From the NCBI GenBank assembly GCA_003214235.1, contig QCLW01000013.1, positions 1 through 33,425 on the forward strand: a DNA stretch of 33,425 bases. The letters run 5' to 3'. Source of the stretch: Prochlorococcus sp. AG-418-F16 (lineage in GTDB: Bacteria; Cyanobacteriota; Cyanobacteriia; PCC-6307; Cyanobiaceae). Positions 11,478 through 14,302 of this stretch are shown here, in pieces. Positions within the stretch are counted from its first letter, which is position 1, and each line of letters starts with the position of its first letter. The notes beneath the pieces are model-generated. The model was not told the DNA's origin, did not search any database, and saw nothing but the letters and a program-made list of their open reading frames with translations. The translations under genes were made by a program, and so were the position numbers.

Positions 11478-12266
11478 TTGAAAAATATTGGTTTAATTTT
11501 ATTTGACATAGATGGTGTAATACGTAGCGTAGAGAATAGTTACAGGCTTTCACTAAAAAAAACAGTTTACAAATTTTCTGGATGGAAGCCAAGTTATATA
11601 GATATTGATAGAGCAAAAAATGAAGGGATCTGGAATAATGACTGGGATTTAAGTTTAGAGCTTATAAAAAGATGCATAAAAAAAGATAACTTAAATCTTG
11701 AAATCCCTTCAAGAGAAGAAATAGTTAAATGTTTTGAAGAGTTTTACTTTGGGGGCGATCCTAATAAAGATAGTAAGTATTGGTCTGGATTCATAACAAA
11801 TGAAGAGTTGTTAGTTGATAAAAAGTTTTTTGATTTATTACAAAAAAATGGAATAATTTGGGGTTTTGTAAGTGGTGCAGAGTCTGCTTCTGCAAAATTT
11901 GTTTTAGAAAAAAGACTTGGACTAAAATCACCTCCATTAATATCTATGGGAGACGCTCCTGACAAGCCTGACCCTAAAGGTTTTATAAAATTATCAAAAA
12001 AGCTTCTTGGAGATAAACTTGGCCCATCAAATATTCCCATTGCATATGTAGGAGACACTATTGCAGATATAAATACAGTTATCAACGCTAGAAAGGAAAT
12101 ACCATCTCAAAAATTCATAAGTATTGGAGTAGCCCCCCCTCATTTACATTTAAAGTCTCGATTGAAAGAACGTAATTTATACGAAACAAACCTACTAAAT
12201 GCTGGGGCTGACTTGATTTTAAATTCTATAAATGACCTAAATGATATTAATTTTGACCTATTTTAA
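11478..12266 (+). CDS. HAD-superfamily subfamily IA phosphatase (TIGR01548-like)
   Basis: A 262-residue haloacid-dehalogenase-fold hydrolase. Motif I is LFDIDGVI with Asp10 and Asp12, motif II is in GFVSGAES, a lysine lies in the following KLSKKLLG region, and motif IV is AYVGDTIADI. The long helical cap between motif I and motif II fits subfamily IA. The N-terminus and the SVENSYR segment resemble cyanobacterial proteins assigned to TIGR01548, a group of unknown substrate. The start is TTG at 11478, with no in-frame ATG near it. It follows cobJ after 90 bases on the same strand and may share its message. A phosphatase activity is likely; the substrate is not visible. Confidence 0.85.
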   Translation: MKNIGLILFDIDGVIRSVENSYRLSLKKTVYKFSGWKPSYIDIDRAKNEGIWNNDWDLSLELIKRCIKKDNLNLEIPSREEIVKCFEEFYFGGDPNKDSKYWSGFITNEELLVDKKFFDLLQKNGIIWGFVSGAESASAKFVLEKRLGLKSPPLISMGDAPDKPDPKGFIKLSKKLLGDKLGPSNIPIAYVGDTIADINTVINARKEIPSQKFISIGVAPPHLHLKSRLKERNLYETNLLNAGADLILNSINDLNDINFDLF

Positions 12267-12299: not shown

Positions 12300-12317
12300 T
12301 ACGGAGAGGGAGGGATT
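12300..12317 (+). repeat. att-like direct repeat, distal copy
   Basis: TACGGAGAGGGAGGGATT, identical to 12951-12968. After the shared 18 bases the sequence diverges from the tRNA (ATGCGAAG here, CGAACCCT in the tRNA), so this is only the last part of the tRNA gene and not a second tRNA. Confidence 0.8.
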
Positions 12318-12331
12318 ATGCGAAGACCTCT

Positions 12332-12424
12332 ATGGCTAAGTATGGCAAGGATTGTCATATAGAAGATGGAGAAAACAAAATATTTCCGACAACAGTTGAA
12401 CCATTCTATAAGGAGGAAATCTAA
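12332..12424 (+). CDS. Possible 30-aa peptide inside the tRNA-Ser element
   Basis: An ATG at 12332 opens a 30-residue frame (MAKYGKDCHIEDG, ending PFYKEEI) that stops at 12422-12424, immediately next to the stop of the opposing repeat protein frame at 12425. It is charged, with one Cys and one His, and matches nothing I know. There is no good ribosome binding site before the ATG. The DNA at its start contains two tandem TATGGC words ten bases apart. Its neat end-to-end fit with the opposing frame is the only support; it may be chance. Confidence 0.2.
   Translation: MAKYGKDCHIEDGENKIFPTTVEPFYKEEI
12383..12394 (-). repeat. Iteron TGTTGTCGGAAA, solitary copy
   Basis: On the minus strand TGTTGTCGGAAA, the same as the copy at 12827-12838; identity extends one base further, to 13 bases. 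It lies near the opposite end of the element in the same orientation as the tandem pair. Confidence 0.6.
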
Positions 12425-12634
12425 TTACTTTCCTATTTGTGAACCCATACCTTTGTTCTTGAGTTCCTTTTGATATGCCTCTTTGGTTGAGAGGATGAAA
12501 TCTTTAATCGAGGATTTATTAAATAATGACTTTCCTATTTGTGAACCCATACCTTTGCTCTTGAGTTCCTTTTGATATGCCTCTTTGCTTGAGAGTATGA
12601 AATCTTTAATCGAGGATTTATTAAATAATGACAT
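12425..12634 (-). CDS. 69-aa protein made of two 34-residue repeats
   Basis: After the initial Met the protein is two nearly identical 34-residue units beginning SLFNKSSIKDFILS and ending KGMGSQIGK, differing only at S/T and S/N positions. Each unit looks like two amphipathic helices followed by a glycine turn. I do not recognise it. It is encoded by a 102-bp tandem duplication with three base differences, so the duplication is recent. The ATG arises where a third, partial repeat copy has changed AAG to ATG. No clear ribosome binding site is visible. Low numbers of differences, two of which change the amino acid, say little about selection. It may be a real microprotein or an element remnant. 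Confidence 0.35.
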   Translation of the reverse strand: MSLFNKSSIKDFILSSKEAYQKELKSKGMGSQIGKSLFNKSSIKDFILSTKEAYQKELKNKGMGSQIGK

Positions 12635-12647
12635 TCTTATTTGTGAA
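12428..12647. repeat. 102-bp tandem repeat, about 2.2 copies
   Basis: Units 12428-12529 and 12530-12631 match at 99 of 102 bases; a partial third unit continues at 12632-12647 (about 14 of 16 bases). The unit length is a multiple of three, so the reading frame is kept through the two full copies, while the frame of the upstream 46-residue ORF crosses the partial copy in a different phase. Confidence 0.9.
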
Positions 12648-12777
12648 AATTGCTTTGTAGATGATCACTTAAGTTCTCAATTCTTTTATAACGCATAGCA
12701 ATTTGCTCTTCAACTATGTGAGATCTTTTTTGGAAATCTACATATCGAACTTTTGCAATTAAATCTGGACACCCCAC
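12637..12777 (-). CDS. Possible 46-aa helical protein with GTG start
   Basis: A frame read from GTG at 12777 (VGCPDLIAKVRYVDFQKRS) through IVEEQIAMRYKRIENLSDHL to a TAA at 12637. The frame is open further upstream to the TAA at 12853, but no ATG is present, so either GTG is the start or this is the tail of a lost gene. The product would be basic and helical. Its stop is two bases from the ATG of the repeat protein, as in a translationally coupled pair. The end of this frame overlaps the partial third repeat in a different phase, which suggests rearrangement of a formerly longer gene. Not recognised. Confidence 0.3.
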   Translation of the reverse strand: MGCPDLIAKVRYVDFQKRSHIVEEQIAMRYKRIENLSDHLQSNFHK

Positions 12778-12814
12778 TACTGCTTCTGTAGTAGGGTTTT
12801 GTGTGCAAATTTTT

Positions 12815-12838
12815 TTTACGACAACATTTCCGACAACA
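12815..12838 (-). repeat. Tandem iteron pair TGTTGTCG(G/T)AAA
   Basis: On the minus strand two 12-base words abut exactly: TGTTGTCGGAAA (12838-12827) and TGTTGTCGTAAA (12826-12815). With the solitary copy at 12383-12394 they make three same-direction copies in the bounded interval, a pattern typical of protein-binding iterons such as arm-type recombinase sites. Confidence 0.6.
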
Positions 12839-12915
12839 AATTTGGGTTTGGATTAAAAATCTAACCTATAAAAAATAAATCAAAAATTGCTCTAATTCTT
12901 TTAAGTCCAATTATT

Positions 12916-12940
12916 TTGACCCTTTCTGACGTTATCTGAC
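12916..12940 (+). repeat. Three TGAC words at 10-bp spacing beside the tRNA-Ser repeat
   Basis: TTGAC at 12916-12920, CTGAC at 12926-12930 and CTGAC at 12936-12940 fall on one helical face, ending ten bases before the att-like repeat. They could be core-flanking binding sites for a recombinase; chance is not excluded for such short words. Confidence 0.35.
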
Positions 12941-12950
12941 ACTAATAAAA

Positions 12951-12968
12951 TACGGAGAGGGAGGGATT
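12951..12968 (+). repeat. att-like direct repeat, copy within tRNA-Ser
   Basis: TACGGAGAGGGAGGGATT, covering the 3' part of tRNA-Ser (acceptor strand and start of the T arm) plus two bases beyond it; identical to 12300-12317. Confidence 0.8.
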
Positions 12969-13041
12969 CGAACCCTCGACAAAAGTTACCTCCTGTAACT
13001 CCTTAGCAGGGAGCCGCTTTCAACCACTCAGCCACCTCTCC
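12953..13041 (-). tRNA. tRNA-Ser (anticodon GCU)
   Basis: An 89-base class II tRNA. Acceptor strands GGAGAGG and CCTCTCC pair fully with discriminator G; the D arm contains GCTGAGTGG; the anticodon loop CTGCTAA (anticodon at 13005-13007) sits on the stem GCTCC/GGAGT; a long variable arm follows; the T loop is TTCGAAT. CCA is not encoded. It lies between alr and the bounded element and is the apparent integration target. Confidence 0.97.
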
Positions 13042-13102
13042 AGTTCTTATACATTATCAATTTTTTTGCAAACATTCAAAATTATTTATTTAATCGAAAT
13101 GT

Positions 13103-14302
13103 CTAATCAACTTTAACTCTCGGCAATCTATTTTTAAAAGAACAAAGAATTTCCCATGGAATAGTGTTAGATTCTTTTGCCCAATCAACAGGGGAAATTG
13201 TTTTGTCACCATCAGATCCTAGTAATATCATCGTACTACCAACTTTAATTTCATTTGAACATGTTATGTCCACCATCATTTGATCCATAGTTATTGATCC
13301 TACTTGGGGATAAAGTTGATTATTATGAATAACATTTATCTTGCCTGAGAGATTTCTTGGGACTCCATCTGCATAACCAATACTTAATACAGCCAACTTA
13401 GTTTCTCTACTACTTACAAATTTCCCTCCATAACTTACTCTTACCCCTTGATCAATAATTCTTATAAAAGCTACTTTAACCTTCAAAAATAAAGCTGGTT
13501 TAAGCGATAAATTTTTATCTATTTTTGCAAGAGGACTATAGCCATACATAGAAAGCCCAACACGTACCATATTAAAATGGAAATCTTTATTAAGAAGCAT
13601 GCCCGCAGAATTTGCCAAATGAATCTTGATACCGCAATTACTTTCAAAGTTAATTTGCTTTAATAATTGATGAAACTTATATCTTTGTAATTGTGTAATG
13701 CTTTTAGGATCTAATGAGTTCGGTTCATCTGCAGATGACAAATGACTATATATTCCTTCTATTGAAATGTTTTCAAAAGATTTTATCTTTTCAAATTGCT
13801 CAACAAATTTATTAAATTCAAATCCTAATCTTGACATTCCAGTATCAACCTTAAGATGTAAAGAAAATTTCAACCCAAAGTGCTTCCCAATATTATTGCA
13901 AATCAAACACTCTCTTAGACTACTGATAGTTGGCATAAGATTATTTTTTAATGAAATTATTAAATCTCTTTTCGTATATAAATTTCCGAGAATAAGAATT
14001 GGTTTTTTAACTCCAGAAGAACGAAGCCTAATCCCTTCTTTTAGAGTGGCAACTCCTAATTGCGAAGCTCCACCTTTGATAGCATAATCAGATACTACTT
14101 TTGCATCATGTCCGTATCCATCTGCTTTAACAACTGCCATAAATTGACAATTTTTACTTAATTTTGATCTTAACTGCCTTACATTTGTTTCTATTGCTTT
14201 ACCTTTAACTTCAATCCATGCTCTTTGTTTTGGATCTATATCTTTTTCAAAAGTTGAATATTTATCAAAATTAAATCCCTGATTTGTTTGCCGAATTTGC
14301 AT
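13103..14302 (-). CDS. alr: Alanine racemase
   Basis: A 399-residue PLP enzyme that interconverts L- and D-alanine in the cytoplasm, supplying D-Ala for peptidoglycan. The PLP lysine is K59 in AVVKADGYGHD, and the second catalytic base is Y291 in RVSYGGKF. LKVDTGMSRLGF and the barrel-closing SIGYADGVPR are also typical of Alr. About 27 residues precede the usual RAWIEV start of the domain; the assigned ATG at 14302 overlaps the longest possible form of the divergent HNH gene by 19 bases, so a later start for that gene is preferred. Length is slightly above the family norm because of the N-terminal extension. Confidence 0.96.
   Translation of the reverse strand: MQIRQTNQGFNFDKYSTFEKDIDPKQRAWIEVKGKAIETNVRQLRSKLSKNCQFMAVVKADGYGHDAKVVSDYAIKGGASQLGVATLKEGIRLRSSGVKKPILILGNLYTKRDLIISLKNNLMPTISSLRECLICNNIGKHFGLKFSLHLKVDTGMSRLGFEFNKFVEQFEKIKSFENISIEGIYSHLSSADEPNSLDPKSITQLQRYKFHQLLKQINFESNCGIKIHLANSAGMLLNKDFHFNMVRVGLSMYGYSPLAKIDKNLSLKPALFLKVKVAFIRIIDQGVRVSYGGKFVSSRETKLAVLSIGYADGVPRNLSGKINVIHNNQLYPQVGSITMDQMMVDITCSNEIKVGSTMILLGSDGDKTISPVDWAKESNTIPWEILCSFKNRLPRVKVD

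Follow-up and report, generated by a model that had tools for sequence, protein, structure and literature searches.

A short interval at the tRNA-Ser(GCU) gene

The window analyzed here, a 33,425-nucleotide stretch of Prochlorococcus sp. AG-418-F16, carries a tRNA-Ser(GCU) gene that ARAGORN places at 12952-13042 on the minus strand (tRNA-Ser(gct)). The interval next to it is flanked by alr (13103-14302, minus strand), beyond the tRNA, and by a HAD-like hydrolase gene (11478-12266, plus strand). The 18-mer TACGGAGAGGGAGGGATT is present in two exact plus-strand copies, at 12300-12317 and 12951-12968, with a start-to-start spacing of 651 bases. Given the ARAGORN coordinates, the second copy corresponds to the tRNA 3′ end plus one base, and the statement of the sequence-only reading that this end is repeated 651 bases away in the same orientation was confirmed. 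Read on the minus strand, like the tRNA, both repeats contain a 12-bp core, CTCCCTCTCCGT, at 12952-12963 in the tRNA-proximal copy and at 12301-12312 in the distal copy. The tRNA 3′ end is the putative attachment site and the distal repeat the other putative attachment junction, with an interior of 633 nt between them (12318-12950). No third copy of the 18-mer was found in the window at up to three mismatches, 100 dinucleotide-preserving shuffles gave no match, and the rest of the genome has one more near copy, with one mismatch, at another tRNA-Ser gene (cga).

The largest open reading frames (ORFs) of the interval encode 69 and 46 amino acids (aa), both on the minus strand, and neither has a Pfam match above the curated cutoff. 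The earlier description of an interval with no ordinary gene therefore holds, with the refinement that the 69-aa ORF is a member of a repeat-gene family present elsewhere in the genus. An RNA-family search returned the tRNA itself, a subthreshold match to a plastid UTR family on the other strand of the tRNA, and nothing else. A phage origin was also considered and set aside, as the interior had no blastn match in a phage collection of 50,697 records; in viral contigs, both the repeat protein and the end pattern were without a match.

Empty and occupied sites in relatives

An alr search of the named genome contigs returned 279 relatives, from which the best 80 loci were taken. The HAD gene was not on the locus in four of them (L012, L018, L060, and L063), leaving 76 scorable alr-HAD intervals, and a site was called empty when the HAD C terminus lay within 80 nt of the tRNA end. 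By this measure, 47 sites are empty and 29 are occupied. With size taken as the distance that separates the HAD match and the tRNA end, occupants measure between 217 and 7,978 nt, with nine below 1 kb, six of 1 to 2 kb, and 14 larger. The sequence-only reading had proposed an alignment of this interval across Prochlorococcus genomes, and the empty alleles and larger occupants (up to 8 kb) that it anticipated were both found; an identical interval in all relatives, which it had named as the outcome that would speak against it, was not. The presence/absence polymorphism is direct, and the 651-bp interval is a real insertion. That the two 18-mers are a chance repeat, or a segmental duplication in which recombination at the tRNA end played no part, is left with virtually no weight: the shuffles already speak against it, the existence of empty and alternative alleles refutes it, and other occupants at the site are bounded by the same core.

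Among the cargos of the site, a carbamoyltransferase gene (PF02543/PF16861, five ORFs) recurs in L025, L036, L041, L053, and L062, on scattered alr backgrounds and in both orientations. Its partner is a 130-aa ORF, also found five times, that matches the Pfam family named SxtJ.

Core-bounded modules and conserved ends

The core is rare in this context. At up to two mismatches, it occurs at none of 782,145 positions of background (the 80 loci, read on one strand and nearly to the end of alr), and a further core at the same threshold is present in 23 of the 29 complete occupants. Six occupants (L004, L024, L030, L053, L054, and L070) have three or more cores in all, forming core-bounded tandem modules. 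The second core is missing in another six (L025, L027, L043, L062, L064, and L077), which counts against the mobile-cassette reading discussed below. We refer to the occupant stretches obtained by cutting at the cores as modules.

We built a profile of the left end of the occupants, comprising 48 nt inside the tRNA-proximal core and trained on 21 nonredundant occupants with the window family excluded. The corresponding end of the window interval (12904-12951, minus strand) scored 14.1, the highest of 66,754 window positions on both strands, while all 47 empty sites scored −12.0 or lower; left-out training members ranged widely, from −27.2 to 31.1. This conserved inner end resembles a recombinase-recognition motif. 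A profile of the distal end was weaker, with 8 to 144 of ∼66,750 positions equaling the window score depending on the profile length, and this counts against the mobile-cassette reading. Applied to internal modules outside G090, the profile of tRNA-adjacent ends placed six of eight left ends in the top 0.15% of the background and did not recover the motif in L030 and L054, which again counts against that reading. For the stretch that follows the last core, L063 scored 34.7 and L012, L024, L029, and L041 were unremarkable.

Both ends of the window interval were then compared with those of 33 modules. A far core was required of each, and occupants lacking a second core were left out. By summed ends, the best was a 5,280-bp module of L070 that encodes a tyrosine recombinase. 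Its left end matches that of the window at 23 of 40 positions, a value reached by 11 of 520,028 sampled background positions, and its right end matches the distal inner end (12313-12352, minus strand) at 24 of 40, a value reached by none of them. The window cassette and a recombinase-bearing element at the same site thus have in common a core and both inner ends. Second by summed ends was the third module of L053, which has no gene (left 23, right 21, or 23 when the G019 right end is used), and for the left end alone one L014 module was better than L070, with 24.

The interior of this L053 module is gene-less and 206 nt long; on the left it aligns at 82% identity with the leftmost 138 nt of the L070 module and on the right at 79% with the rightmost 95 nt. 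Similarly, the two terminal parts of the L019 module, the left one at 97% identity and the right one at 96%, make up the first module of L030. Gene-less modules with 165 to 206 nt inside were also noted in L073 and L004 besides L053 and L030, and the first L004 module and the L073 module, both of 206 nt, have a single inner repeat pair each.

Paired inner repeats

At an offset of 113 from the core, the left side of the window cassette has a pair of 12-bp direct repeats, TGTTGTCGGAAA and TGTTGTCGTAAA (12815-12838, minus strand), that agree at 10 of 11 positions, a score reached in none of 300 shuffles. The right side has one unit, TGTTGTCGGAAAT (12382-12394, minus strand), 82 nt from the right end; a second unit is unrecognizable, and the match at period 12 is just 6 of 11, which counts against the mobile-cassette reading.

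Comparable repeats are a general property of modules at this site. Among modules of at least 400 nt, 24 of 29 share an exact repeat between their left and right subterminal regions, and shuffled sequence equaled it in no more than 7 of 200 cases; the exceptions are L012, the internal modules of L024 and L030, L041, and the first G090 module. The repeats lie mostly 103 to 135 nt from the left core and 78 to 104 nt from the right core. In many cases they are tandem 12-bp units whose sequence is specific to the family, for example AGGGGATAAAAT, TGGTGGGTAAAT, TGTTGTTGGGAA, and TGGTGTGGCGAA. Thirty-four modules are 200 nt or longer; they are not independent, since several are near-copies, and in the ∼206-nt modules the left and right sides are the same pair. 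Among them, agreement of at least 9 of 11 at period 12 was observed on the left in 24, on the right in 22, on either side in 28, and on both in 18. Without the window family, the figure for either side is 26 of 30. As controls, 316 of 20,000 random 70-nt windows and 20 of 1,800 windows from module interiors gave this agreement; none of the 47 empty sites did at the corresponding offset.

While position and period are similar between families, sequence is not, as illustrated by TGTTGTCGGAAA of the window, GGGGATGAAATG of L070, and TGTTGTTGGGAA of L080. The inner repeat sequence of the window was detected in carriers of the window-type cassette alone, and no integrase-bearing element with it was found; this and the difference from L070 count against the mobile-cassette reading. 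Attachment sites of the lambda and Tn916 type comprise a core and direct repeats some 80 to 140 nt away on the arms. On the basis of this anatomy, the paired inner repeats may be arm-type integrase sites; the cassette is alike in having a core and distant direct repeats, and the likeness is one of geometry alone.

The cargo is a chimeric rpsO/ruvA repeat gene

Between the inner repeats lie a hairpin, the 46-aa ORF, and the 69-aa ORF. The hairpin (12777-12794, plus strand) is followed by the T-rich tail GGTTTTGTGT, with a folding energy of −17.2 kcal/mol and a z-score of −3.45 for the 51-nt context; directed towards the tRNA, it may be a terminator. The 46-aa ORF (12637-12777, minus strand, GTG start) contains an rpsO-like fragment (12644-12714) that is 76% identical over 71 nt to the rpsO of one genome. 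The Pfam S15 match of this ORF is below the cutoff (E of 0.001), with an E of 1e-4 for the ORF of a relative. The 69-aa ORF (12425-12634, minus strand) consists of two 34-aa repeats, encoded by two tandem 102-bp units that are 96% identical (12422-12625) and vary in copy number among relatives. Each repeat has a ruvA-like fragment, 88% identical over 43 nt to the ruvA of one genome, which we take to be the helix-hairpin-helix part of RuvA. In L162, ruvA and rpsO look adjacent.

As a whole, the repeat-gene family looks protein coding, because there is a strong third-position excess in the pooled units: pair differences number 14,497 at third codon positions versus 3,034 and 938 at the other two (75 equal-length units from the 49 loci with units, those of one locus or of related genomes being nonindependent). 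That constraint is absent from the first unit of the window, which compared with other units has a median dN of 0.08 and a median dS of 0.11 over 33 codons, and the 46-aa ORF is interrupted by stops in two of seven gap-free aligned sequences. For these reasons, we claim no function for the window copy; the right arm and the cargo gene look partly decayed. The 69-aa ORF had no match among solved structures up to an E value of 10, and its AlphaFold model has three helices at middling confidence (mean pLDDT of 73.5, pTM of 0.38). Part of the tRNA-proximal region is 79% identical to the chlL 3′ end of one genome over 81 columns with 12 gaps. Weak matches only were obtained in the own assembly, and an origin from the chlL 3′ end is a weak lead.

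The same cargo is widespread. The interior was matched at an E value of 0.001 or below in 102 of 266 assemblies, mostly to its body, some of the weakest matches being ruvA or rpsO themselves or unrelated places. The chimeric rpsO/ruvA gene (12422-12761 in the window; loci L104 to L161) is dispersed with a variable number of 34-aa repeats, and parts of this body at most of 60 fetched places are about 85 to 96% identical over the matched part. A tRNA is present in the fetched stretch at 19 of the 60 places and not at the other 41 (up to ∼4 kb per side, some stretches cut by a contig end). Besides tRNA-Ser, the body is found near tRNA-Cys and tRNA-Asn. Far copies of the tRNA-Cys 3′ end have 2 mismatches of 18 in L108 and 1 in L113, L114, and L119, while L115 has none; in L113, the far copy precedes the body, which reaches the contig end. 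The body thus lies within an interval bounded by an imperfect tRNA 3′-end copy in three of the five tRNA-Cys loci tested. The tRNA-Asn examples are weaker, with far copies at 2 (L117) and 4 (L110, weak) mismatches of 18 and no clear inner pair. The tRNA-Cys site varies as well: among the 30 best loci, taken from 110 genomes with a match, the gap between the neighboring gene and the tRNA is 264 to 408 nt in 21 and 678 to 1,231 nt in three, and the remaining six have no tRNA-Cys within 1.5 kb. In an uncontrolled count, the tRNA-Cys elements have an 11-bp pair, TGGGCGGTTAG and variants, at places like those of the 12-bp pairs, each element having it on a single side, the left for L108 and the right for L114 and L119.

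This dispersal could be taken to mean that the repeat gene itself is the mobile unit, a chimeric rpsO/ruvA cassette that spreads by its own means and has landed beside tRNA genes, the tRNA repeat being incidental. Recurrence of body parts at many places, 41 of 60 of them without a tRNA in the fetched stretch, is what such a unit would give. At tRNA-Ser, however, the common unit extends to the cores in all four carriers, and at three of the five tRNA-Cys loci the body lies within the bounded interval described above, L115 and L113 being the exceptions. We consider this explanation improbable.

Recombinases at the site

The sequence-only reading had an interval without its own recombinase, and no integrase is indeed encoded in it: the three integrases found at the site gave no tblastn match inside the interval at E values up to 10. 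Pfam and PHROGs scans covered every occupant ORF that reaches 80 aa, 63 in total, of which 58 belong to the 29 complete occupants. PF00589 and PF00239 were each assigned to three ORFs, as was the PHROGs integrase annotation, and by similarity both Pfam sets belong to L024, L070, and L080. A tyrosine recombinase is thus observed in these three complete occupants only, and 26 of the 29 are without a detected integrase. The L070 integrase is above the Pfam cutoff of 27.1, and those of L080 (26.6) and L024 (25.7) are just below it, which counts against the mobile-cassette reading.

The own assembly (71.75% complete) has no relative of the L070 integrase at E values up to 1e-3, and its one PF00589 gene is of another type, both of which count against the mobile-cassette reading. 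The one phage-integrase-family gene of the own genome encodes 389 aa (G000:C27, L164 829-1998), and the gene that follows it is presumably a cobalamin adenosyltransferase. At the edge of the window, an ORF that runs off the contig (3-296, plus strand) is weakly similar to the L070 serine recombinase (E of 7e-5). Relatives of the L070 integrase at E values up to 1e-40 are present in 17 of 266 assemblies, and no tRNA was found in the fetched flanks (up to 1.5 kb per side) of the 19 loci that carry them.

Carriers of the window-type cassette

The entire interior is found at tRNA-Ser in 4 of the 266 genus assemblies, namely the window's own, G020 (where the element is divided over two contig ends), G019, and G090. 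A search with the end pattern returned the same four carriers and G055 (three mismatches), whose copy is also at tRNA-Ser(gct). G090 has a tandem array in the order tRNA, core, other cassette, core, window-type cassette, core; the module between the tRNA and the window-type cassette is 1.47 kb long, has a 288-aa ORF, and is bounded by an exact core on each side.

The four carriers are dispersed over an 83-row alr tree and require four changes, at least three of which are forced by well-supported branches. G020 clusters with four empty sites (99/91), G090 pairs with L011 (100/100), which has a different occupant, and the row closest to the window is the carrier G019, at a weakly placed fork. 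Cassette segments are 77 to 93% identical between the window and the other carriers, and alr and HAD are 90 to 93% identical. The cassette is thus no more alike between carriers than its flanks are, so a recent jump is not indicated, and this speaks against the mobile-cassette reading. The pattern fits an old polymorphism reshuffled via insertion, loss, and homologous exchange.

These data also bear on whether the interval is what remains of an element that was once autonomous, had its integrase removed by an internal deletion, and can no longer move, with the differences between genomes due to loss and homologous exchange of the region. A divergence of the cassette equal to that of the flanks or exceeding it is compatible with such a history, as are the half-lost right inner repeat, the 1, 1, and 2 mismatches of the distal core in the other three carriers, the near equality of dN and dS in the window cargo, and the several losses that could be among the changes in the alr tree. 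Against this, neither 18-mer of the window has a mismatch, the cassette has kept its left end and left repeat pair intact, the interval has no trace of an integrase, and the site often holds integrase-less modules, whose cargos are of many kinds. On balance, an immobile remnant is unlikely. The sequence-only reading had left the choice between a small passenger and a decayed remnant, and it is the passenger that gains: exact cores, the end motif, and the left inner repeats point to a complete nonautonomous cassette. Some decay nevertheless stands, with one unit of two in the right repeat and a cargo in which dN is close to dS.

A probable nonautonomous cassette, proposed to move in trans

We therefore favor, with a probability of roughly three in four, a small nonautonomous, integrase-less Prochlorococcus cassette that is moved in trans by tycheposon-like integrases. 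A tyrosine recombinase from another element would recombine the cassette core, within the 18-bp repeat, with the end of tRNA-Ser(GCU), restoring the tRNA and leaving the second core at the far side. The cassette ends would supply what the enzyme needs, namely the core-adjacent motif and the inner 12-bp repeats at the positions of arm-type sites, and ∼420 bp between the inner repeats would be cargo, consisting of a short chimeric gene of rpsO and ruvA fragments with tandem 34-aa repeats. We infer the action of the recombinase in trans, the role of the paired repeats as arm sites, and the ability of the cassette to move still.

A broader model is possible and is offered tentatively, as we would not yet bet on it. 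The tRNA-Ser 3′ end may be the insertion point of tandem cassette arrays in which a cassette is approximately a portable attachment site, a core with paired 12-bp inner repeats, that carries optional cargo and is moved by the integrases of a minority of cassettes. The joined-ends modules of 165 to 206 nt (the third of L053, the first of L030, and probably that of L073) would then be empty vectors, the inner repeats would be a second exchange point at which cargo is swapped, and the cassette of the window, with its 0.4 kb of cargo, would be a unit of this kind.

Tycheposons of Prochlorococcus were reportedly presented by Hackl and colleagues in Cell in 2023. In PMC10872708, they are cargo-carrying elements of 4 to 200 kb at seven Prochlorococcus tRNA genes, with a tyrosine recombinase. 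The tRNA-Ser occupants resemble them in tRNA insertion, tyrosine recombinases, and variable cargo. The cassette itself has the integration at a tRNA 3′ end with direct repeats, but its ORFs are of 69 aa or less and include no tyrosine recombinase, and its 651 bp are far from the ∼4 to 200 kb given in that account (PMC10872708). It is probably best filed as working like a miniature tycheposon minus two defining features, an own recombinase and size. Another picocyanobacterial integrase, distinct from those of tycheposons, is described in PMC10187409; it lies near tRNA-Phe or tRNA-Cys and is frequently accompanied by a small serine recombinase, which recalls the tyrosine and serine recombinases of L024, L070, and L080.

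Similar arrangements are known from other systems. Island fGI-2 of Methylopumilus, at tRNA-Lys, has recurring copies of the last 20 nt of the tRNA and ranges from 330 bp to 42 kb (PMC10872708, in excerpt); it is like the cassette site in the recurring tRNA-end copies and the size range, whereas end motifs and inner repeat pairs are absent from that excerpted description. CALINs, which are integrase-less arrays of integron cassettes, and MITEs are nonautonomous elements mobilized in trans (PMC11389934). The likeness lies in nonautonomous units whose enzyme is encoded elsewhere and, for CALINs, also in the arrays; the units at tRNA-Ser differ by description in being bounded by a tRNA-derived core. 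An island of MIT9313 has five pseudo-tRNA-Met genes (PMC2784084). Among the titles and abstract openings returned by literature searches, the primary tycheposon study lying outside this set, none dealt with ends-only or sub-kilobase cassettes at Prochlorococcus tRNA genes, which is a weak indication that such cassettes have not been described.

The genome of Prochlorococcus is very small, and these observations bear on how such an organism goes on gaining and losing genes. If cassettes of a few hundred bases are moved by recombinases from elsewhere, the mobile fraction at tRNA genes would be larger than counts of integrase genes suggest, and the 26 of 29 occupants of one tRNA site without a detected integrase would be an example of such an undercount. 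The combination of a core, an end motif, and an inner repeat pair may serve as a search pattern for such cassettes.
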